A program made the position numbers and the translations under genes. This document shows positions 6,180 to 28,717 of a DNA stretch of 28,819 nucleotides, piece by piece. Under the pieces are notes generated by a model that was not told where the DNA came from, made no database searches, and saw only the letters and a list, made by a program, of their open reading frames with translations. Position 1 is the stretch's first letter. The number at the start of each line of letters is the position of its first letter. The DNA is from a virus. The stretch is from positions 1 to 28,819 of the IMG/VR virus record IMGVR_UViG_3300035700_000037; one strand, given 5' to 3'.

Positions 6180-7643
6180 TTAGCTAAGAAGATCCAAACG
6201 CCATGCGCCGTCTGAGTATTCGCCTTCCCAACTCTTGATCCAATAATCGCCGGTCCACTTATACTGGTATCCAGTGTTAAGGTTTGAAGTGTAAGCTACT
6301 TCAGTTTCTTCGCTAGCATCAAATACTATACGCCATTCGCGCAGACCAGAGTTAGAATTAATGTACCATTCAACTATATCATTTTCACTAGCAACAAAGT
6401 CACTGCCGTCTTGGTTCTTCCAAGCATCTGCGCCGTCAGCATTATTAACGTTGCCGATATCGCCTAGTAACAACAGACGTATACCAACTGTTTTAACAGA
6501 ACTAGGGTTGAACCTTGCCGGATCGATGATATAATCGATATTGGTTCTGCCTTCAATAATAGTATCTTCAGGAATAGTATCGCCGTCCCATGTGATATTG
6601 ATTACTGTAGGATCCATGCCATCAAGTGCAATTGTACCTACGATGTAATTGTTAGTTTCGGACGATTGCAAGAATATTCTGCTTGAACCAGCTTGATACT
6701 GGCCAGTATATGCTTCAAATAATTCTAACCAACTAACAGTGCCAACACTTTGTCCGTCGATTATCTGAGCTTGGTTGCCGTTTACAAATAGGCCGTAATT
6801 TTTCCAAGTAGTAGCAACAACGGTTCTATTGTTACTAGTAACGTCTGTAGTCGTTGAAGTTTCTATTCCGTTCTCATTGTCCATTATATCGCCTGTACGA
6901 ACTGCTGGCGGAGCCGTGTCAGCCCAAGCAGCTAACTCAGGACCACTAATGCCTAGTTCAATACTGCCATTAGCTTCGTCGTAGATGCTGTTTATAATCT
7001 TTTGTACAACGCCTAACTTCTTAACCTTGACTGGTGTAGACAAGTAGATAGGAATACTAAAAGTAAGCTGAGCGACGTCGATCTCTGAATCAACACCAAC
7101 AGGAATAGACTTTGATGAAAATACAACGCCTTCAAGGTTAACAACAGTCAAACTAGTCCAGTCGATATAATTGTCTGTTGCTTGTATCTCGAAACTTGGG
7201 TTAAACAACGCAAGAATCTGTTCAAGTATTTGTAATTTTTGATCAGTATTTGATGCCCATATATCTGCACTTATACGCAAAGTGTACGGACTTGGCATCA
7301 GCCTTTCGACAGTGTAGTTTTGACCTTGTGTATTAAGGTATTCTTGGTTGTCTCTGTCGTACGCTCGTTCTCTTACGTTAACCTTGCTAACCAAAGTCTG
7401 GTCAGCAGTTCTTGTGCGATCCTGCTCGAGTCCGGTAATATAGACAGCCATTCTAGGTGCACTAGGAATCTTGTTCTCGGAGTTGTCTCTGATTATGTTA
7501 GCAACTTGTCGTGTGAGGTCTCCGTACATTACAGGCACCTGTTTGAGGTTGCCGTTAGCGTCCTGGTGTGAAAAGTTACTCAATAGACGAATTGTCTGAG
7601 TGAGATATCGTCTTATTTGTTTATCGTAAAAGAAATCAGACAT
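6180..7643 (-). CDS. gp15: tail sheath stabilizer, gp15-like
   Basis: 487 residues from the ATG at 7643, chosen because AAGGAG lies about 9 nt upstream. An in-frame ATG at 7670 lies deeper inside the endonuclease gene and has a poorer context. The N-terminus MSDFFYDKQIRRYLTQTIRL fits the start of T4 gp15 (FYNSSFRRYATL in my memory). Further gp15-like stretches follow: NYTVERLMPSPYTL, EQILALFNPSFEI and a VAQLTFSIPIYL strand. T4 gp15 caps the sheath and tube end of the tail so that the head can join. This protein is much longer than T4 gp15 (272 residues). The excess is C-terminal and ends in Trp-rich motifs (YQYKWTGDYWIKSW). Confidence 0.85.
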   Translation of the reverse strand: MSDFFYDKQIRRYLTQTIRLLSNFSHQDANGNLKQVPVMYGDLTRQVANIIRDNSENKIPSAPRMAVYITGLEQDRTRTADQTLVSKVNVRERAYDRDNQEYLNTQGQNYTVERLMPSPYTLRISADIWASNTDQKLQILEQILALFNPSFEIQATDNYIDWTSLTVVNLEGVVFSSKSIPVGVDSEIDVAQLTFSIPIYLSTPVKVKKLGVVQKIINSIYDEANGSIELGISGPELAAWADTAPPAVRTGDIMDNENGIETSTTTDVTSNNRTVVATTWKNYGLFVNGNQAQIIDGQSVGTVSWLELFEAYTGQYQAGSSRIFLQSSETNNYIVGTIALDGMDPTVINITWDGDTIPEDTIIEGRTNIDYIIDPARFNPSSVKTVGIRLLLLGDIGNVNNADGADAWKNQDGSDFVASENDIVEWYINSNSGLREWRIVFDASEETEVAYTSNLNTGYQYKWTGDYWIKSWEGEYSDGAWRLDLLS

Positions 7644-8205
7644 TCTTCTGCTCCTTACGTTGCTTTGCACGTTGTTTCATAGCATCTCTACGTTTTTTAG
7701 CCTCTTCGACGCCGTAAATTTCTTCCCAGGTCTTGCCTTTATAATGCTTGCTGTTTGCTGTACCTATTTTACTTTTAGCAGAGGCTGTCTGAGTCTTGCC
7801 CTTCATAGCGCCACCATCTTTTCTTGTCCAGCCGCCGTCACCTCCGGACTCTCTTCTTCTAGTATGAGCTGCTTTTTGAGATTCTTTCATAAGTTTAATA
7901 CTTTGTTCTGAATGTTTTCTATTGTTGCCACCTTGCCTTAGGTTGTATCCGGTTTTTATACTGTCGTAGTCGTCAATGTACTTTTCTTCTAGTTCATTTA
8001 GTTCTTCTAGGCTTTTGGCATAATCTATTACTTCCCAAGCAAATGATTCTTTTCCGTATTTTCTTATAGCATTATGGAAATGATGTTTCTTGCTCGAATA
8101 ACGGCAGTCTGCTATATGTTCTAGCCTTCTTCGATTAGGATCTTGTATAGACTGTCCTATATAAACTTTACCTGATTCTATATGAGTCCACTTATAGATG
8201 TGCAT
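7636..8205 (-). CDS. GIY-YIG homing endonuclease
   Basis: 189 residues. The N-terminal domain has the GIY-YIG pattern: IYKWTHIESGKVYIGQS at about residues 3-19, then R26/R27 and ending with YNLRQGG. The C-terminal half is basic and carries short DNA-binding repeats of the NUMOD3 kind (HSEQSIKLMKES, then KGKTWEEIYGVEEAKKRRDA). Its ATG overlaps the stop of gp14 (TAATG), and its last codons cover the Shine-Dalgarno sequence and first codons of gp15 (8-nt overlap). It is therefore a free-standing mobile gene wedged exactly between two neck genes without disturbing either. It has no late promoter of its own and relies on the gp14 transcript. Confidence 0.9.
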   Translation of the reverse strand: MHIYKWTHIESGKVYIGQSIQDPNRRRLEHIADCRYSSKKHHFHNAIRKYGKESFAWEVIDYAKSLEELNELEEKYIDDYDSIKTGYNLRQGGNNRKHSEQSIKLMKESQKAAHTRRRESGGDGGWTRKDGGAMKGKTQTASAKSKIGTANSKHYKGKTWEEIYGVEEAKKRRDAMKQRAKQRKEQKNV

Positions 8206-9498: not shown

Positions 9499-9507
9499 GA
9501 TAAATAC
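9499..9507 (+). promoter_or_regulatory. T4-type late promoter for gp13
   Basis: Plus-strand GATAAATAC. The predicted start near 9512 is just ahead of GGAG at 9513-9516, which serves the ATG at 9524. The promoter position argues against the in-frame TTG at 9497 as the start. Confidence 0.87.
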
Positions 9508-9523
9508 AATACGGAGAACTTCA

Positions 9524-10306
9524 ATGACTGATACATCGATGCAAGAACAATTAGCAACACAAAAACAAGAAGTATACGATTACATTAAAGCCTTTTTAGG
9601 TGGCGGCATGGTTGATGTCGAGTTGGATCCTATACACTACCAAACAGGACTTGAAAAAGCACTGTCAAAGTTTCGACAGCGATCAGACCACGCTGTTGAA
9701 GAATCTTATCTCTTTCTTCCGTTGGTGATAGATCAAAACCAATATATTTTGCCAAAAGAAGTAATTGAAGTACGCAAACTATATCGTAGAGGTGTCGGAT
9801 CACGCCACGGTGGCGGAGGCAGCGGAACAGTTTTCGAACCGTTTAACCTTGCTTACACAAACACATATCTTTTGAGCGGATCTACCCAAATGGGCGGACT
9901 AGCAACTTATGATTTCTTTGCACAACACCAAGAACTAGTAGGCAGAATGTTTGGCTCGTTCTTAGAGTTTCAATGGAATTCAACAACAAAGAAACTAACC
10001 ATACTGCAAAGACCACGAGCTGATACCGAAGAGATTCTTATCGAAGCATACAACTATCGTCCTGACAGTCAGTTACTTGAAGACTATTTGGCCAAGCAAT
10101 GGATTAAGGACTATGCACTTGCAGCGTGTAAGTATATGCTAGGCGAAGCACGAAGTAAGTTTGCAACAATAGCAGGTCCACAGGGCGGCACTAGTCTTAA
10201 TGGCGACACGCTAAAGGCAGAAGCGCAAGCTGAGATGGAAAAACTTGAACAAGACGTCATCCAGCAAGTGGCCGGCGGGGTTGGTTTTTCTTTTCTAATC
10301 GGTTAG
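9524..10306 (+). CDS. gp13: neck protein, gp13-like head-completion
   Basis: 260 residues from the ATG at 9524 (MTDTSMQEQLATQKQEVYDY). Typical gp13-type stretches are seen: GGGMVDVELDPIHYQTGLEKAL near the N-terminus (split here as GGGMVDVELDP and HYQTGLEKAL), then RSDHAVEESYLFLPLV, FLEFQWNSTTKKLTILQRP, and a C-terminal KQWIKDYALAACKYMLGEARSKF. In T4, gp13 joins gp14 to close the filled head and provide the tail docking ring. It is transcribed divergently from gp14 and gp15 through the shared palindromic promoter. The gene ends in TAG, which shows that TAG works as a stop in this genome. A late-promoted endonuclease gene follows after 30 nt. Confidence 0.88.
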   Translation: MTDTSMQEQLATQKQEVYDYIKAFLGGGMVDVELDPIHYQTGLEKALSKFRQRSDHAVEESYLFLPLVIDQNQYILPKEVIEVRKLYRRGVGSRHGGGGSGTVFEPFNLAYTNTYLLSGSTQMGGLATYDFFAQHQELVGRMFGSFLEFQWNSTTKKLTILQRPRADTEEILIEAYNYRPDSQLLEDYLAKQWIKDYALAACKYMLGEARSKFATIAGPQGGTSLNGDTLKAEAQAEMEKLEQDVIQQVAGGVGFSFLIG

Positions 10307-10323
10307 GGTTCACAGTAGGATAA

Positions 10324-10331
10324 GATAAATA
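10324..10331 (+). promoter_or_regulatory. T4-type late promoter for interrupted endonuclease
   Basis: GATAAATA lies 5 nt before the ATG at 10337. With T4 spacing, the predicted transcription start falls on the A of the ATG, so the late transcript would be leaderless. The box overlaps the left arm of the hairpin at 10328-10354. Confidence 0.72.
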
Positions 10332-10354
10332 AGAGTATGAAAACTACTCTTATT
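10328..10354 (+). promoter_or_regulatory. start-codon hairpin
   Basis: AATAAGAGTA (10328-10337) is perfectly complementary to TACTCTTATT (10345-10354) across a 7-nt loop. The ATG begins with the last base of the left arm. Read-through RNA would bury the start region. RNA started at the late promoter would lack the left arm. This resembles the switch described for the T4 td-intron endonuclease gene. Confidence 0.7.
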
Positions 10355-11149
10355 GATATTATTGAAAACGACGCAAGTTATAATAAATCCGCAACCAGGT
10401 ATCTGTATAAACAGCATCCTGAGCTATGGCAGCGGATTCTAACAGCAACAAATTTTCTGCCTGGAACCGCTAAAGCTAAACAACGAGTGTGGCACGTATT
10501 GAATGACGTGTATGAACGTCCTGTGTGTCCTGTAACAGGCGAGTATGTAAAATGGTGGGAGAATAGGTACCTTAAAACATCAAGTGTTTCCGCTAGTACC
10601 ACGCATAGAAATAAATTAGGACTGAATAATAATCAAACAGAGTCTGCTAAAGCAAAACGCACAAAGACACTAAGAGACGGTTTTTCTACTGGGCGTATCA
10701 AGCCTAAACAGTGAACACCTAAAGAAGCTGCCGCTAGGTACGAAAAGATACGTGCTGCTACACAAGAGAAGTACGGGGTTCATTCTACACTGCTAATCCC
10801 AGAAGTAAGAGAAAAACAATATCAATCAAAGGTTGATAAAGGAATCATAACAGCTAGAGAGGATCGCACTGCTCGTCAGTTATATTACGACGCTGTAACA
10901 CGTCTTACTAAGAAGAGCTGGGCAGAGCACTTTGATAAAATAAATCCTAACAGACTAAACAGAAGCGAATGGGACTTGGATCATAATTATAGTATTCAAG
11001 CAGGATTCCGCAACGGGATTCCGCCGTATGTTATAGGACATTGGACTAACTTGCGTATGATGATTCCAGCAGAGAACTATAGTAAAGGTATGAAGTGCCA
11101 CAAAACAAAGAAGCAACTATTTGAAGATGTATTTGCGTCAATCGGTTGA
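10337..11149 (+). pseudogene. HNH-type homing endonuclease with in-frame TGA
   Basis: One frame runs from ATG 10337 to TGA 11147-11149 and is broken only by TGA at 10712-10714. The first part (125 residues) has the usual N-terminus of large phage homing endonucleases (ATRYLYKQHPELW, then ERPVCPVTGEYVKW). The second part (144 residues) has EKYGVHSTLLIPEVREKQ and then the HNH-like core: LDHNYSIQAGF, NGIPP, HWTNLRMMIPAENYSKG. The catalytic half lies after the stop, so without read-through the product would be inactive. Nothing else in the second half is damaged. The lost codon was plausibly TGG (KQ-W-TPKE). It is inserted between gp13 and the kinase-like gene. A fresh mutation, a sequencing error or read-through are all possible. 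Confidence 0.8.
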
Positions 11150-11155
11150 TTTAGG

Positions 11156-11184
11156 TTGACATCTAGTAGTTCTTCAGTTATACT
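11156..11184 (+). promoter_or_regulatory. strong sigma70-type promoter
   Basis: TTGACA at 11156-11161 and TATACT at 11179-11184 are separated by exactly 17 nt, close to the host sigma70 consensus. The predicted start near 11191 gives a short leader with TGGAG before the ATG at 11207. This is an early-type promoter inside a late-gene region. Confidence 0.85.
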
Positions 11185-11206: not shown

Positions 11207-11752
11207 ATGACAATCCCACCCAAACTGATGATAATAGGACACGCTCGACACGGCAAGGACACTGTCTGTGAGTATATTGTCAACAAATACAACTTTGAAT
11301 ACGAATCCAGCAGTCATTTTGCTGCTCGACATTTTATCTTCGACGAACTTAGAGTTCGATTTAACTACCAAACTGTAGAAGAATGTTTAGCTGACAGAGT
11401 TAATCATAGAGAACTTTGGTATAACATGATTGCTGATTATAACAGTAATGACCCTGCTCGACTTGGCAAGGAACTGTATGTTGAAAACGATATCTATTGT
11501 GGTCTGCGTCACAAGCGTGAATTCCACAGTATGAAGAACCAAGGTGTATTTGACTACGTAATTTGGGTTGACAGAAGCGATCACTTGCCGCCAGAAGACA
11601 AGACCAGCATGTCGCTTGAGCCTTGGATGGCTGATTTTGTAATTGACAATAACGGACTGCTAGAGGAAACTAAACGCAACACTACAGACCTAATCGATAA
11701 CATACTTGTAACGCACTTAGGTTACGATGCATTAGAGGTCTTAGCTCGTTAA
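11207..11752 (+). CDS. P-loop (d)NMP kinase-like protein
   Basis: 181 residues. A P-loop lies at residues 11-19 (GHARHGKDT) directly after a hydrophobic strand (KLMII), as in deoxynucleoside monophosphate kinases and adenylate-kinase-like folds. Later parts fit a small kinase: a region rich in Arg (RVNHRELW) and a strand FDYVIWVDRSDHLPPED followed by a C-terminal DFVIDNNG motif. T4 gene 1 encodes a dNMP kinase, but I cannot show direct orthology. The start at 11207 follows TGGAG. An overlapping ATG at 11203 is in another frame. The strong sigma70 promoter implies early expression, fitting dNTP supply. Its stop overlaps the stop of the convergent HNH gene by 3 nt. Confidence 0.75.
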   Translation: MTIPPKLMIIGHARHGKDTVCEYIVNKYNFEYESSSHFAARHFIFDELRVRFNYQTVEECLADRVNHRELWYNMIADYNSNDPARLGKELYVENDIYCGLRHKREFHSMKNQGVFDYVIWVDRSDHLPPEDKTSMSLEPWMADFVIDNNGLLEETKRNTTDLIDNILVTHLGYDALEVLAR

Positions 11753-16274: not shown

Positions 16275-16282
16275 CATAAATA
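16275..16282 (+). promoter_or_regulatory. T4-type late promoter, leaderless type
   Basis: CATAAATA lies 5 nt before the ATG at 16288. T4 spacing puts the transcription start on the A of the ATG. No Shine-Dalgarno sequence is present upstream. Confidence 0.75.
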
Positions 16283-16287
16283 TTACT

Positions 16288-17418
16288 ATGGCAAATAAAT
16301 TAAATGGTTTTCTAAATAACGTCGGACAAGGACTTACAAATCCTAAAGGCAACCTTGGTGACTTTCGTCACGCTGCTAGGATGTTTATTGACGATACGTT
16401 TAGACTAGCACCAAAACAAAAGTTCCTATTCTTTGTGAACTTTGAAATAAACCCCGCAGCACTTGAGCAATTTCCACAGTTAAAAAACAGACACTTGCCT
16501 GAAATAAACATGCTGTGCAAGACTGCTGATTTGCCACAATTTTCAGCGAGTGTAGATGTAAAGAATCAGTACAACAGGAAGAAAGTAGTTCAAACAACAC
16601 TTGAATACACGCCAGTTAATATCACAATGCACGACGATAACCAAGGCATAACTACCTTCTTGTTAGAAGCATATTACAAGTACTACTATAGAGACGGCCG
16701 CGGCGACGCTCGAGAAGACGCATACGGCGCCAGAAATACATACAGTGGAGTGCGCAAATATAGATATGGTCTCGATAATGGCACTGTAGTCCCTTTCTTT
16801 AAAAACATTAAGTTATATCAGTTGTCAAGGCAGCAGTTTACTGAATATACTCTAGTCAACCCAATGATCGAAAGATGGGGCCACGACTCAATGGACTATT
16901 CCGACAGCGCAGGTGTATCAGAAAACACGATGGTAATAAACTACGAAACTGTGCTCTACGACAGAGGCAGGATCGATGAAGACCTACCAGCAACGTTCGC
17001 TACGTCGCATTACGATACTGTGCCTAGTCCGTTATCAGTTGAAGGCGGTGGTGTTGCAAACTTGTTCGGCGCAGGCGGCGTATTAGACGGTGGCAGTTCT
17101 GTTTTAGGCGATGTGGCTTCAGGTGACATCGGATTAGGCACTTTGCTTTCAACAGCTAACACAGTAAAAAATGCTAAACAACTTAACACAGAAAACATCA
17201 CAGCAGAAGGTATAGGACTTGCTACAAGCACACTGTCAACGATTGGCCAAGGCGCTTCGCTAGGCGGAATCGCTGGTTCGATTATTCCAAGTGCCGGAGC
17301 AGGCAACGAAGGTACAACAGTAGCACTAGCACCTAACAGTGACAACTCCGGTTCGCAGGCACCTAGTGTCGGACAGGGGCAAAAGTTAGCATCAGCAAGA
17401 GGACGTAACACGCCATGA
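16288..17418 (+). CDS. tail-tube-like virion protein
   Basis: 376 residues. The N-terminal 240 residues read like an enlarged tube-type domain: KFLFFVNFEINP, then LPEINMLCKTADLPQFSASV, NQYNRKKVVQTTLEYTPVNI and LLEAYYKYYYRDGR. The strand order is like gp19 (tube pattern, then HDDN, then a long aromatic stretch). The last 130 residues are Gly/Ala/Ser-rich and probably flexible. It may be a tube initiator or terminator protein (T4 gp54 or gp48 role), but I see no clear similarity to T4 gp54, so no symbol is given. There is no Shine-Dalgarno sequence. The stop overlaps the next ATG (ATGA), so the next gene is probably translated by coupling. Confidence 0.85.
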   Translation: MANKLNGFLNNVGQGLTNPKGNLGDFRHAARMFIDDTFRLAPKQKFLFFVNFEINPAALEQFPQLKNRHLPEINMLCKTADLPQFSASVDVKNQYNRKKVVQTTLEYTPVNITMHDDNQGITTFLLEAYYKYYYRDGRGDAREDAYGARNTYSGVRKYRYGLDNGTVVPFFKNIKLYQLSRQQFTEYTLVNPMIERWGHDSMDYSDSAGVSENTMVINYETVLYDRGRIDEDLPATFATSHYDTVPSPLSVEGGGVANLFGAGGVLDGGSSVLGDVASGDIGLGTLLSTANTVKNAKQLNTENITAEGIGLATSTLSTIGQGASLGGIAGSIIPSAGAGNEGTTVALAPNSDNSGSQAPSVGQGQKLASARGRNTP

Positions 17419-21373: not shown

Positions 21374-22951
21374 ATGAGCAAATCACTTGACGGCGTACTA
21401 ACCAAAAAAGCTAACCAGCAGGAAACCTACACAGAGAAACAAATAGAACAACTTGTTAAGTGTATGGAGCCTGAAGAAGGTTTCTTGTATTTTGCCAAGA
21501 ATTTTGCTTATATACAGCATCCAGTAAAAGGCAAACTACTGTTTGATCCTTACGAATATCAAGAACGACTCTTAGAAAGTTACCACAGCTACCGCTTTAA
21601 CATAAACATGTTGCCTCGTCAAACAGGTAAGACAACATGCGCGGCTGTATACCTAGCTTGGTATGCAATGTTCCATCCGGACCAAACTATCCTAATTGCT
21701 GCACACAAGTACTCTGGTGCACAAGAAATTATGCAGCGTATACGCTATGTCTACGAGCTGTGCCCCGACCATATTAGAGCTGGTGTTGTCAACTACAACA
21801 AAGGCTCGATTGAATTCGAAAACGGTTCTCGTATAGTAAGTTCTACCACAACAGGCAACACTGGACGTGGTATGGCTATATCACTACTATACTGTGACGA
21901 GTTTGCGTTCGTACAACCAGGCATCGCTGACGAGTTTTGGACTTCGATATCACCTACACTAGCAACAGGTGGTCGAGCAATTATTACATCTACACCAAAC
22001 TCAGACGAAGATACATTTGCAAACATCTGGAAGGATGCAGAAAGAAAGTTTGATGAACACGGCAACGAAACAACACTAGGGGTCAACGGTTTCCATTCGT
22101 TTACAGTATCGTGGGACGAACATCCAGATCGCGACGACGAGTGGAAGAAAGCAGAAATTGGACGTATTGGCGAAGAGCGTTTTCGTCGTGAGTACGGCTG
22201 CGAATTCCTAGTATTTGACGAAACCCTTATTAACTCGATCAAGCTGTCTACAATGGAGGGCACTTCACCTAAACTAAACATGGGCCAAACTCGTTGGTAT
22301 GCGAAACCTAAGGCAGGATACACCTATGCCGTAGCACTTGATCCTAGCATGGGCACAGGCGGCGACAACGCTGCTATACAGGTAATTGAGCTGCCTACCT
22401 ATGTGCAGGTCGCAGAGTGGAACCATAACCTAACATCGATACCTGGACAGATACGAATACTAAAAGACATTTGTGCGTATATACAAGAAACTATTAAAGC
22501 TCCAAATTCTATTTACTGGAGTGTAGAGAATAACAGCATAGGCGAAGCTGCTCTCCTTGTAATACAGGACGTCGGCGAAGAAAACATCGACGGCTTGTTT
22601 ATATCAGAGCCAATGCGCAAAGGTCACGTGAGAAAGTTCCGCAAAGGATTCAACACCACTCACGGCGCAAAGATTTCAGCATGTAGTCGTCTAAAAACAA
22701 TGATTGAAAACGACAAGTTAGTTGTGCACTCAAAGCCTTTGGTATCAGAGCTTAAAGGGTATATTGCAACTGGATCGAGTTACCAAGCCAAGCAAGGAGC
22801 CAGTGACGACTTAATATCTGCACTGTTGCTGACTATTAGAATGATGGCTGTACTCAAAGACTGGGATCCTAAGATCTATAATACATTTACACAAGCAGAG
22901 GATGACGACTATGACCCTCCGATGCCGATCTTTATGAGCAACAACGGATAA
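21374..22951 (+). CDS. gp17: large terminase subunit gp17
   Basis: 525 residues from the ATG at 21374 (MSKSLDGVL). An in-frame TTG at 21359 overlaps the promoter and is rejected. The ATPase domain has Walker A LPRQTGKTT (residues 80-88) and Walker B ISLLYCDE (D175, E176). The nuclease domain has D323 in YAVALDPSMGTGG, E385 in YWSVENNS and D478/D479 in GASDDLISALL, matching the three-acid site of T4 gp17. It is the motor that translocates DNA into the prohead and cuts it. T4 gp17 is longer (610). Its TAA lies inside the late box of the next gene. Confidence 0.98.
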   Translation: MSKSLDGVLTKKANQQETYTEKQIEQLVKCMEPEEGFLYFAKNFAYIQHPVKGKLLFDPYEYQERLLESYHSYRFNINMLPRQTGKTTCAAVYLAWYAMFHPDQTILIAAHKYSGAQEIMQRIRYVYELCPDHIRAGVVNYNKGSIEFENGSRIVSSTTTGNTGRGMAISLLYCDEFAFVQPGIADEFWTSISPTLATGGRAIITSTPNSDEDTFANIWKDAERKFDEHGNETTLGVNGFHSFTVSWDEHPDRDDEWKKAEIGRIGEERFRREYGCEFLVFDETLINSIKLSTMEGTSPKLNMGQTRWYAKPKAGYTYAVALDPSMGTGGDNAAIQVIELPTYVQVAEWNHNLTSIPGQIRILKDICAYIQETIKAPNSIYWSVENNSIGEAALLVIQDVGEENIDGLFISEPMRKGHVRKFRKGFNTTHGAKISACSRLKTMIENDKLVVHSKPLVSELKGYIATGSSYQAKQGASDDLISALLLTIRMMAVLKDWDPKIYNTFTQAEDDDYDPPMPIFMSNNG

Positions 22952-22955
22952 ATAC
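22947..22955 (+). promoter_or_regulatory. T4-type late promoter, leaderless type
   Basis: GATAAATAC contains the gp17 stop codon (TAA 22949-22951) and lies 3 nt before the next ATG at 22959 (4 nt from the TAAATA core). No Shine-Dalgarno sequence is present. Confidence 0.74.
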
Positions 22956-22958
22956 GTT

Positions 22959-24878
22959 ATGGACCTAAACACAATTGCAGAAGAGTTATTTTCAAAAGTA
23001 CGCGGGAGATTTCCGAGCGTAACTATCGGCGACGGTGACGGCAATGTTACTAATGAACCAGCCGAAGCACGTTACTACGAATTTACTTTTGACAAAACTA
23101 ACGACAACAAAATTAGCATATCACTGAGCGAAGACGACGGCGTCGTTATTATGTACGCAGACAGCGTTACAGAAAACGAAATAGCTAAAGGCAAGTGGTA
23201 TGAGTTCTTACGTGAAATGAGAATGTTTTCAAAGAAGCGTATGCTAAACTTTGATGTCCGCAATATTACAAAATCGAATCTAAAGAAAAGAGATTACCAA
23301 TATCTCGCAACGAACTCCGGAGACAACAGTATGAACGAATCGAAGCTATACGGAACTTCAAAGATGAGCTATCAAGATATGGACAATGCTAGACTAGTAA
23401 TTAAACATACTGAAAGTGTCGATCAAGAAGTTCCAGCAGGCCGCACTAGAAACATCAGCGCAATTTACATTGAGAATAACGAATCAGGCGAAAGGTTCAA
23501 GTATCCTTTCAAACACTTAGCAGGCGCTAGAGCAATGGCTCGACACGTAGCAGAAGGCGGCACTACGTATGACGACTTCGGTGAGCATATAGTTGGCTTG
23601 TCAGAAGAGCTTTCGAAGCTACGCAAGTTTAAGAACTACATGGGTCGTTCAAAAGTTATGGCAGAAAGCCTAGCTGAGTACATGGGAGTTGTACACGAGC
23701 GTATTGGTACAGTCAAGAAAAGAATTGATAGTTTACAAAAGCCTGGTTATTACAAAGAAGCATACGAAGGTTTTGAGAAGCCAGTGTTTGAAGAAATACC
23801 AGAAGACGTAAAAGAGAACTGGATTGACCAACTTACTATACGTCAGTTTAACGAAGAGCTCAAAGACGTGTTTCCATACATTTACAAGCTAATCGGTGAA
23901 GGCACACGCGCTAAAGAACTTGGTCCAGATGACTTCATGAGTGAAGACGACCGTTATTCTGACGAAGCACCAGATCCTATCGAAGATGACGACGATGACG
24001 TAGAGGAAGGCATTGGCAGAAAGTTCAACAAGCTAATAGACTTTGGTGACCTGAAGCCTAAAGATATACAGAAAAGAGTTCGTGCTATGACTGACGATCA
24101 GTTGAAGATGCTAGGTAAAGACGTTGGCGAAAAGCCAGGTGACGGAAGCGAACGCGGTCTTCAAACGAAGTTGATTAATCAAGAGCTTAAAAGACGTTAT
24201 GGCATTAAGCCGGGCAAAGATGTTTCAGAAGATGAAGATCCTTGCTGGGATAACTACAAACAGGTTGGTATGAAGAAAAAGAACGGAAAAGAAGTTCCTA
24301 ACTGCGTGCCAGAAGAGCAGCAGATAGAGGCTTATTTTGAAGAACTAATGGGTGAGTGGGCAGATCAGCCTATCAGCGAGATGTCACCTGAAGAACTAGC
24401 AAACATGGTCGATAAGCGTGGCCCGCAAGAGTCACCTAAAGAGTACATTAAGCGAAAGTACGAAGACCTAAAGAAACTATCTGCAGAAGTAGGTCACAAT
24501 GCTGAAAAGGATCTGATCCGAAAAATTGCTATGCAAAAGGATCAACTAAAACAAGCATACGAGCTACTATCAAAGAAAGAGTCAGCAGAAGCAGAAGACG
24601 ACGCGGTCACAGAGCAGAAGTCACCACTAAGTGAATTTATTCTCAGCTTTTATGATCGTGCATCGGGTTCTTTCCCTAAAGGCGAAACAGCCATTCTTAC
24701 TATGGTAGAAAAAGATTACGGCGACGAGTTCGTAGAACCAGCAAAAACCTTTATCGAAAGAGTCAACCAAACGTTCGAGCAGTATAACTCGAGCGGAATG
24801 CAAGAACCGGCACCGGCAGTAGCTGCTCCGGCAGAAGACAGCGAATTTGATCGCATTAGACAGCTAGCTGGTCTCTAA
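22959..24878 (+). CDS. large unknown protein after terL
   Basis: 639 residues. The first 110 residues look like a small alpha/beta domain (YYEFTFDKTNDNKISISLSE, then GKWYEFLREMRMF). The central part is helical and charged, with an acidic patch DDDDDVEEG near residue 345. Around residues 427-450 there is a motif with paired cysteines (DPCWDNYKQVG, then PNCVPEE) that I recall from several marine T4-like virion proteins. The C-terminal part is coiled-coil-like. No enzyme signature is found. It is late-expressed, follows gp17, and ends in a hairpin before the gp32 module. It is probably a structural or internal head protein, by context only. Confidence 0.88.
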   Translation: MDLNTIAEELFSKVRGRFPSVTIGDGDGNVTNEPAEARYYEFTFDKTNDNKISISLSEDDGVVIMYADSVTENEIAKGKWYEFLREMRMFSKKRMLNFDVRNITKSNLKKRDYQYLATNSGDNSMNESKLYGTSKMSYQDMDNARLVIKHTESVDQEVPAGRTRNISAIYIENNESGERFKYPFKHLAGARAMARHVAEGGTTYDDFGEHIVGLSEELSKLRKFKNYMGRSKVMAESLAEYMGVVHERIGTVKKRIDSLQKPGYYKEAYEGFEKPVFEEIPEDVKENWIDQLTIRQFNEELKDVFPYIYKLIGEGTRAKELGPDDFMSEDDRYSDEAPDPIEDDDDDVEEGIGRKFNKLIDFGDLKPKDIQKRVRAMTDDQLKMLGKDVGEKPGDGSERGLQTKLINQELKRRYGIKPGKDVSEDEDPCWDNYKQVGMKKKNGKEVPNCVPEEQQIEAYFEELMGEWADQPISEMSPEELANMVDKRGPQESPKEYIKRKYEDLKKLSAEVGHNAEKDLIRKIAMQKDQLKQAYELLSKKESAEAEDDAVTEQKSPLSEFILSFYDRASGSFPKGETAILTMVEKDYGDEFVEPAKTFIERVNQTFEQYNSSGMQEPAPAVAAPAEDSEFDRIRQLAGL

Positions 24879-27379: not shown

Positions 27380-27835
27380 ATGGGTTGGTACAGCACAGTA
27401 TCAAAAGACATCTCTAGAATTCCAGATGCTATTCAGTATTACGAATCGGAACTTGAAGATGCTCGCCTTGAAGTAAAAATCAAAGGAAGTCTTGAAAAAG
27501 CCTCAGCAGAAATGCCAGGGGTAATAGAGCATCGCTTTAACCAACTACAAGAAATTGAAGTTGTGTTAAACTACTTGAATATAGAACTGCGTAAAATACG
27601 CAGTTCTTATTTTAAGAAATACCTTGAAAATTACCAGCGAGCTCTCAGCAGCAGAGATGCAGAAAAATACGTAGACGGTGAAAAGGCAGTGGTAGACTAC
27701 GATCTACTCATAAACGAATTTGCACTACTGCGTAACAAGTGGTTGGGCATTCTAAAAGCCCTAGACTCCAAAGGATTTTCTATCAACAATATTATAAAAC
27801 TTAGAGTAGCCGGACTAGACGATGTCTCGGTATGA
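27380..27835 (+). CDS. uvsY: UvsY recombination mediator
   Basis: 151 residues. Like T4 UvsY (137 residues) it is mostly helical and ends in the family's C-terminal helix: KALDSKGFSINNIIKLRVAG, comparable with T4 SRGFAIKHIQDMRAFEAG. It lacks an ATPase motif, as expected for a mediator that loads UvsX on gp32-coated DNA. The start is 1 nt after the small acidic gene, with GAGGA upstream. The stop TGA is part of the late box for the endonuclease gene that follows. A diverged copy of its last 19 residues is found at 28658-28714 at the end of that endonuclease frame. Confidence 0.93.
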   Translation: MGWYSTVSKDISRIPDAIQYYESELEDARLEVKIKGSLEKASAEMPGVIEHRFNQLQEIEVVLNYLNIELRKIRSSYFKKYLENYQRALSSRDAEKYVDGEKAVVDYDLLINEFALLRNKWLGILKALDSKGFSINNIIKLRVAGLDDVSV

Positions 27836-27862: not shown

Positions 27863-28717
27863 ATGAACATCTACTATGTTTACGGGTTGATAGACCCTAG
27901 AGACAACTTACCATTTTACGTTGGCAAAGGAAAAGAGAACCGAGCATACACACATCTTAAAAATAACTCGGGTACTTGTAATCCTAGAAAAGACGCAAGA
28001 ATTAACGAGATTTATAGTTTGGGATTGACTCCTGTTGTGGAGCTCTTTTTAGAAAACGTCGATGACTTAACTGCGTATAACACCGAAGAAGCGACGATTC
28101 TAGAATTAGGTAGAGAGGGGATAGACAATAACGGAATGCTAACCAACATTAGTCTACACTCTCAACCGCCTTCGCAAAAAGGTAAAAAACGGACATTTAC
28201 TCAAGAACATAAACAAAAATTATCAGCTAGTCTAAAAGGTAAACCTAAGCAGTATGATACATGGCAAAAGGGACTAACAAAAGATACAGATGCCAGAATT
28301 AAAAAAATGGCCGAGAAAAGAAGTCAAACAGGCAATCGTCATCAAATAGGCCAAAAGTATTCCCAAGAAAGAATAGAAAAGATTAGAAGTGCGTTAAAAG
28401 GAAAGACAGTGCCAAACGATCAAAAAGAAAAGATGAGTTTAGCAAAGAAAGGAAAGACTTAGGAAGAGATTTTTGGAGAGGAAGGCGCAGCCCAAAGAAG
28501 AGTAAGTAAAATTAAAGGCGAGCAGCATCCGAATGCTAAAAAAGTAAATACTCCAGAAGGAACATTTAGTACTGTAACAGAAGCTTCGAAGTATTTTAAA
28601 GTCTCGGATTACACTATTAGAAAAAGATGTCTAAACGATAAGGAAAGAGGGAAACAATGGCAGATTACAAACGTAGTCAAGCTAAGAGTTGTAGGGATGG
28701 AAGACGCGTCTCTGTAA
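27863..28717 (+). pseudogene. GIY-YIG homing endonuclease with in-frame TAG
   Basis: One frame runs from ATG 27863 to TAA 28715-28717, broken only by TAG at 28460-28462. The nuclease domain is intact: YYVYGLIDPRDNLPFYVGKG (residues 4-23), then NRAYTHL. It is followed by several NUMOD3-type basic repeats (EHKQKLSASLKGK, QERIEKIRSALKGK). After the stop come EEIFGEEGA and a NUMOD1-like helix-turn-helix segment (STVTEASKYFKVSDYTIRKR). The other GIY-YIG protein of this window reads KGKTWEEIYGVEE at the same place, so the TAG replaces TGG (Trp). The stopped product keeps the catalytic domain but loses the C-terminal DNA-binding part. The last residues copy the UvsY end. Confidence 0.85.
28658..28717 (+). 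repeat. diverged copy of uvsY 3' end
   Basis: The 19 residues WQITNVVKLRVVGMEDASL before the stop align without gaps to the last 19 of UvsY (FSINNIIKLRVAGLDDVSV): 9 identical, most others conservative. At the DNA level the two are clearly diverged, so this is not a recent tandem duplication. Confidence 0.65.

Follow-up and report, generated by a model that had tools for sequence, protein, structure and literature searches.

A Conserved Hairpin Overlapping the Late Promoter and Start Codon of an HNH-like Endonuclease Gene Inserted at the End of gp13 in T4-like Viruses

What would a hairpin do that holds part of a late promoter in one arm and the start codon of the gene behind it at its loop? 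The question is raised by an endonuclease gene in IMG/VR record IMGVR_UViG_3300035700_000037, a 28.8-kb record of an uncultivated virus that carries T4-like structural genes (tail sheath, terminase, tail tube, and head–tail adaptor). The full stretch of 28,819 nucleotides was analysed and is called the window here; features lie on the plus strand unless noted.

The gene upstream, at 9524–10306, encodes a gp13-like neck protein (head–tail adaptor Ad2; phrog_211, E 4e-33), with its start set at the ATG behind a late box instead of the TTG of the open reading frame listing. This late box, ATAAATA at 9500–9506, ends 17 nt before ATG 9524, with GGAG in between. The late box of the endonuclease, GATAAATA at 10324–10331, is separated by five bases from the ATG at 10337–10339. 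It overlaps the left arm of a hairpin, AATAAGAGTA at 10328–10337, which forms 10 perfect pairs around the loop TGAAAAC with the right arm, TACTCTTATT at 10345–10354, within codons 3–6. The A of the ATG is the innermost paired base, and its TG lies in the loop. An earlier note on this DNA had claimed a perfect 10-bp hairpin at the start, with the late box over the left arm and the ATG divided between stem and loop, and the letters of the window bear this out in each part. The inverted repeat also reaches outward to 10320–10337/10345–10362, at 89% complementarity.

Taken by itself, the window offers suggestive numbers. The RNA of 10307–10370 has a folding energy of −12.4 kcal/mol, matched by 2 of 200 shuffles, while a longer piece of 90 nt, with more of the flanking sequence, stands out less (−14.2, z −1.64, 12 of 200 shuffles). 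An RNA starting at 10337 reaches only −2.3 kcal/mol, and 189 of 200 shuffles are as good. Perfect hairpins of at least 10 bp with loops of 3–12 occur four times in the window, against a mean of 0.33 and a maximum of 2 in 40 dinucleotide shuffles; since four such hairpins are present, the local statistic alone is insufficient to carry the claim. A search of Rfam left the window without a match at gathering thresholds.

Late boxes of T4 lie at −13 to −6 and the Aeh1 box CTAAATA begins at −12, according to the covered part of PMC1524935. Applied to the 5-nt gap, the T4 rule places transcript +1 on the A of the endonuclease ATG at 10337, and the message is predicted to be leaderless. That the gene's own RNA would begin at about the ATG and lack the left arm had been proposed before, and the box spacing predicts the same. 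The T4 late promoter class is read by gp55 and has a TATAAATA-like box at −13 to −6; the box here, a candidate member of this class, is enriched (10 copies of ATAAATA in the window against an expectation of 5.0, a count attained by 2 of 100 shuffles), one-stranded (9 of the 10 copies on the plus strand), and fixed in spacing.

In the window and the marine gp13 loci, ATAAATA most often stands 5 nt ahead of the first ATG of an open frame (53 cases), and the distances have a second peak at 15–19 nt. A Shine–Dalgarno-like site accompanies 3 of 57 starts at 4–5 nt, compared with 68 of 71 starts at 14–24 nt. Short spacing without such a site is the pattern expected from leaderless late messages, and it suggests that leaderless late translation may exist as a class. 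These counts are of sequences and not of events, with 47 of the 57 short-spacing starts belonging to one orthologous gene (MPR/MPK) and the remainder to an MRP gene, the endonuclease, and two window genes (16288 and 22959). Late genes other than the endonuclease with a box 4–5 nt before the ATG are seen at 16276–16290 and 22948–22961 of the window and among the MPR and MRP genes of loci L011–L090. The open-licence literature searched, which leaves out most subscription papers, yielded no description of leaderless late translation in T4-like phages, and the word “leaderless” is absent from the T4 late-transcription review PMC2988020.

Relatives of the endonuclease come from two overlapping scans of viral contigs (9 and 78 loci), which together with the window and locus L237 give 80 start regions, 45 of them distinct. 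A gp13 relative lies upstream in 44 of the 45 distinct members, the exception being L145. The gap between box and ATG is exactly 5 nt in 41 of 45 and 4 nt in two more (43/45 at 4–5 nt). A stem of at least 8 pairs spans the ATG in 35 of the 45, and five others have 6 pairs. In 28 of 44 segments all three bases of the AUG are paired, which is more than in the window's version. Three of the 43 loci that keep the spacing (L119, L120, and L166) have no stem worth naming; with these and the five loci of only 6 pairs, the stem is not indispensable. Locus L153 (1383–1460) has a leader with GGAG; its 10-bp hairpin contains the box in the left arm and has GGAG and ATG at the right arm. Unlike the members predicted to be leaderless, it represents the classic form of the promoter-in-hairpin switch.

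The pairing between the arms depends on their being native partners. In a swapped-halves test of 40 of 44 segments (L120, L145, L153, and L166 were omitted, the start then used for them not being ATG), the native mean stem is 8.40 compared with 6.09 for swapped halves (sd 0.20, highest 6.90; 0 of 5000). When each different left arm is represented by a single sequence (n = 13), the values are 8.38 and 5.39 (sd 0.45, highest 7.31; again 0 of 5000). Covariation was scored in 31 rows picked for a common pairing register, with L119 kept in despite its misfit. These hold 24 cells changed on both sides versus 8.0 in shuffles, for example at pairs 8–28 (CG/AU/GC), 9–27 (AU/UA/GC), and 11–25 (GC/AU), and give a score of 0.240 versus 0.085 in shuffles (0 of 500), with slid versions at 0.019–0.045. 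The permutations preserve composition and the conservation of each side, but the effect of shared ancestry is not fully taken out by them. Compensatory changes, the check that the earlier note had proposed, are thus found in both tests. Late starts of other genes that have this spacing (n = 51) show a mean of 3.2 pairs, and none reaches 8. As judged by comparison of these loci, a hairpin spanning the ATG and its order with the box are shown to be conserved with compensatory change, and this is not general to late genes of the same spacing.

The same evidence bears on whether the repeat is simply conserved sequence or a terminator-like stem with no role in translation. Such a view would be in keeping with the A+T-rich stem, the other perfect hairpins of the window, and the stemless relatives. 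It is very improbable given the covariation and the confinement of the stem to the endonuclease, and the terminator scan predicts nothing at this hairpin, its only prediction being at 10270–10286, inside gp13.

A different alternative is that the inverted repeat acts as DNA, a two-fold symmetric operator laid over the late promoter for the endonuclease or another regulator, and not as an RNA gate. The repeat does overlap the promoter, and autorepression by way of a site at the late promoter is described for I-TevI (PMC2988022, covered part). Mismatches flanked by pairs inside the stems comprise six G-U (4 loci) and three A-C (3 loci), numbers that are compatible with a DNA as well as an RNA element. 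A protein site should keep its sequence, however, and the arms vary freely with pairing maintained: 13 different left arms occur in the family, and pairing occurs in three different registers with respect to the ATG. Furthermore, a copy resembling the homing site, described below, lies beside the repeat and not within it. The operator alternative is accordingly considered quite unlikely.

A hairpin acting in RNA would work as follows. Read-through RNA from gp13 would fold the hairpin and hide the AUG; with the AUG hidden and no usable Shine–Dalgarno site, the endonuclease would go untranslated from this RNA. RNA from the gene's own box would start at the A of the AUG, the left arm gone, and being unstructured could be translated as a leaderless message. 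With gp13 itself late, the hairpin would mainly insulate the endonuclease from abundant late read-through. The earlier note had likened the arrangement to the switch of the T4 td-intron endonuclease, and the promoter-in-hairpin layout does agree, being shared with I-TevI, segB, and mobE (PMC2988022, covered part). A timing switch exactly like that of td I-TevI, acting against early or middle read-through RNA, is nevertheless unlikely. The gp13 gene directly upstream has its own late box and a Shine–Dalgarno-led start, so read-through is itself expected to be late, which makes insulation likelier than early/late timing.

How much of this is new can be judged against known systems. Hairpins combined with a late promoter that sequester the ribosome binding site are described for I-TevI, I-TevII, I-TevIII, segB, and Aeh1 mobE in the covered part of PMC2988022. 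In T4 genes e, soc, and 49, long RNA conceals the start region, and translation is from late RNA whose 5′ end lies inside the helix (PMC3014915, covered part); these are phage genes that are not mobile, and their starts are Shine–Dalgarno led, in which they differ from the present family. I-TevI of the T4 td intron is comparable in having its late promoter within the left part of a hairpin, which in read-through RNA prevents translation. An operator resembling the homing site overlies that promoter, with 15 of 20 positions identical (PMC2988022, covered part). I-TevI is intron-encoded, belongs to the GIY-YIG type, has a sequestered Shine–Dalgarno site, and silences early and middle RNA, whereas the family here is free-standing and HNH-like, is predicted to be leaderless, places the AUG itself in the helix, and follows a late gene.

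Aeh1 mobE and T4 segB are also free-standing endonucleases with a hairpin and late promoter, in which the ribosome binding site is sequestered, and the covered text of PMC2988022 has no leaderless start for them. The earlier suggestion that the switch was here combined with a free-standing gene and a leaderless start is consequently new in its second half, as predicted from spacing, and not in its first. Leaderless translation has been proposed for another phage HNH endonuclease, hidden in the ShiLan insertion, according to the covered part of PMC11855218; that case concerns a mycobacteriophage and an internal GTG in another frame, without a late promoter or hairpin switch. The present family shares with the promoter-in-hairpin type a late promoter over the upstream arm and a conserved helix covering the start (at least 8 pairs in 35/45), but pairs the AUG in place of a Shine–Dalgarno site and has no predicted leader, L153 excepted. 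Because the hairpin with a late promoter was already known for I-TevI, segB, and Aeh1 mobE, what is new is the predicted leaderless form in which the AUG itself is hidden. No leaderless switch with the AUG in the helix was found in the open-licence literature searched, from which most subscription papers are absent.

The gene bears the marks of a mobile element. In locus L012, an empty allele, gp13 reads ATCGGT TGA TTTAGG, letters that recur behind the endonuclease of the window. The displaced native gp13 end, ATCGGTTGA at 11141–11149, now closes the endonuclease frame, and from this junction at 11141 the two are identical over 646 nt. To the left of the insertion, the first 150 nt show 94.7% identity between window and L012, and the four blocks beyond them about 81–82%. 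Two endonucleases of the freshwater clade, those of L147 and L149, close with the codons CAAGG-TAA, followed by sequence like that behind gp13 in empty alleles, and 7 of the 79 freshwater gp13 ends listed carry an endonuclease start (L175, L177, L179, L180, L181, L182, and L237). Control-region remnants without a gene, consisting of a copy of the gp13 end, are found in L250 (after 2253) and L176 (after 2250), and L250 also retains a damaged box and an arm, joined directly to the end of the endonuclease; on this pattern the remnants are scars of gene loss. Occupied and empty alleles thus exist at one site, as in free-standing homing endonucleases, and together with the remnants they point to an element inserted in the last codons of gp13 that has been gained and lost.

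Between the gp13 stop and the box, relatives carry an imperfect copy of the gp13 end, which mostly terminates within a few bases of the box. The earlier note did not include this feature. The copy beats shuffles at p < 0.05 in 31 of 44 loci, compared with 7 of 66 gp13 loci without the gene, and fits the gp13 end of its own locus better than those of other loci in only 30 of 44. In the window, the corresponding stretch is 10307–10323, ending at the late box; it matches at 8 of 17 positions (p 0.40), and here as in several close clade relatives the copy is too short to count, so that its designation as a putative operator comes from the family. By analogy with I-TevI, a degenerate copy of the insertion site beside the promoter is perhaps a candidate operator through which the endonuclease could repress its own promoter, a weaker proposal than that for the hairpin. 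Such autorepression would be effective if read-through RNA is silent, as hairpin and operator together would leave that promoter as the sole, self-limited source. Overall, the region is probably the control region of a mobile, free-standing HNH-like endonuclease in the gp13 end, with an AUG-hiding hairpin, a leaderless RNA of its own, insulation from read-through, and, with less weight, an operator.

The N-terminal half of the window product resembles phage homing endonucleases (phrog_3339, E 5e-4). A structure model of the intact relative in L002 (mean pLDDT 92, pTM 0.52) matches HNH nucleases weakly over residues of about 178–270, with a Geobacter HNH nicking enzyme first (Z 5.3) and mostly Cas9 HNH domains after it; Foldseek matches to HNH nucleases have E 0.09 or worse, and VIA Z is at most 5.3. 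Residues D215, H216, N238, N247, and K250 are conserved, strands and a helix are predicted over 213–250, and the HNH motif was read by eye. Pfam gives no HNH match above cut-off in the family (DUF7487 in 5 of 9 members, best 2e-4; GH-E in one, 0.14), NCBIfam gives no match for the endonuclease, and no solved relative is found by sequence at E up to 1. Among named phages, the endonuclease has 34 tblastn records, all partial and none extending over 80% of its length, and gp13 has 67 records, all below 60% identity. Two other endonuclease-like genes occur in the window, at 7636–8205 on the minus strand (GIY-YIG by PHROGs) and at 27863–28462 (GIY-YIG by eye), the latter with a late box at 27835 upstream and a longer leader.

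The control element is intact in the window, and the endonuclease gene that the earlier note placed behind it is truncated. An in-frame TGA at 10712–10714, codon 126, closes the open part (10337–10714, 125 aa) ahead of the HNH-like domain. The rest of the frame (10715–11149), which includes this domain, has no start joined to it in this contig, and no start codon behind the TGA opens a same-frame reading frame of at least 60 aa. None of the 8 relatives in alignment A1 has a stop at this position, and 5 have W. Reading TGA as Trp was rejected as a simple explanation, with 3 of 17 other window genes inspected ending in TGA and 0 of 8 relatives stopping there. Either the controlled endonuclease is broken in the window or the contig holds a base error.

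The next gene, at 11207, is deoxynucleotide kinase-like and appears to use the opposite arrangement. Its sigma-70 promoter (TTGACA at 11156, TATACT to 11184; 11/12) runs into the left arm of a hairpin of 12 pairs, 11171–11182/11190–11201, whose right arm holds and pairs its GGAG. From 163 loci considered, 49 distinct ones have, behind either gp13 or the endonuclease, a promoter and a Shine–Dalgarno start. In 25 of the 49 the promoter region and the Shine–Dalgarno site form a helix of 7 or more pairs, the mean over the loci being 7.10; halves swapped at kinase-type loci give 5.33 (sd 0.21, highest 6.14; 0 of 2000) and at most 23 such helices. This hairpin would be a mirror image of the late switch, with late read-through silent and early RNA translated.

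Through covariation, the comparative analysis supports a promoter-in-hairpin switch in a family of free-standing endonucleases, and its results point to leaderless translation of late genes in T4-like phages. A broader view is offered tentatively, its chances being put slightly below even: a class of late genes may be translated from 5′-terminal AUGs, with this endonuclease family using a terminal versus an internal AUG as its switch, a homing-site mimic serving autorepression, and the early neighbor forming the sigma-70 mirror image. A switch between 5′-terminal and internal AUG would be compact and directly testable with reporters.
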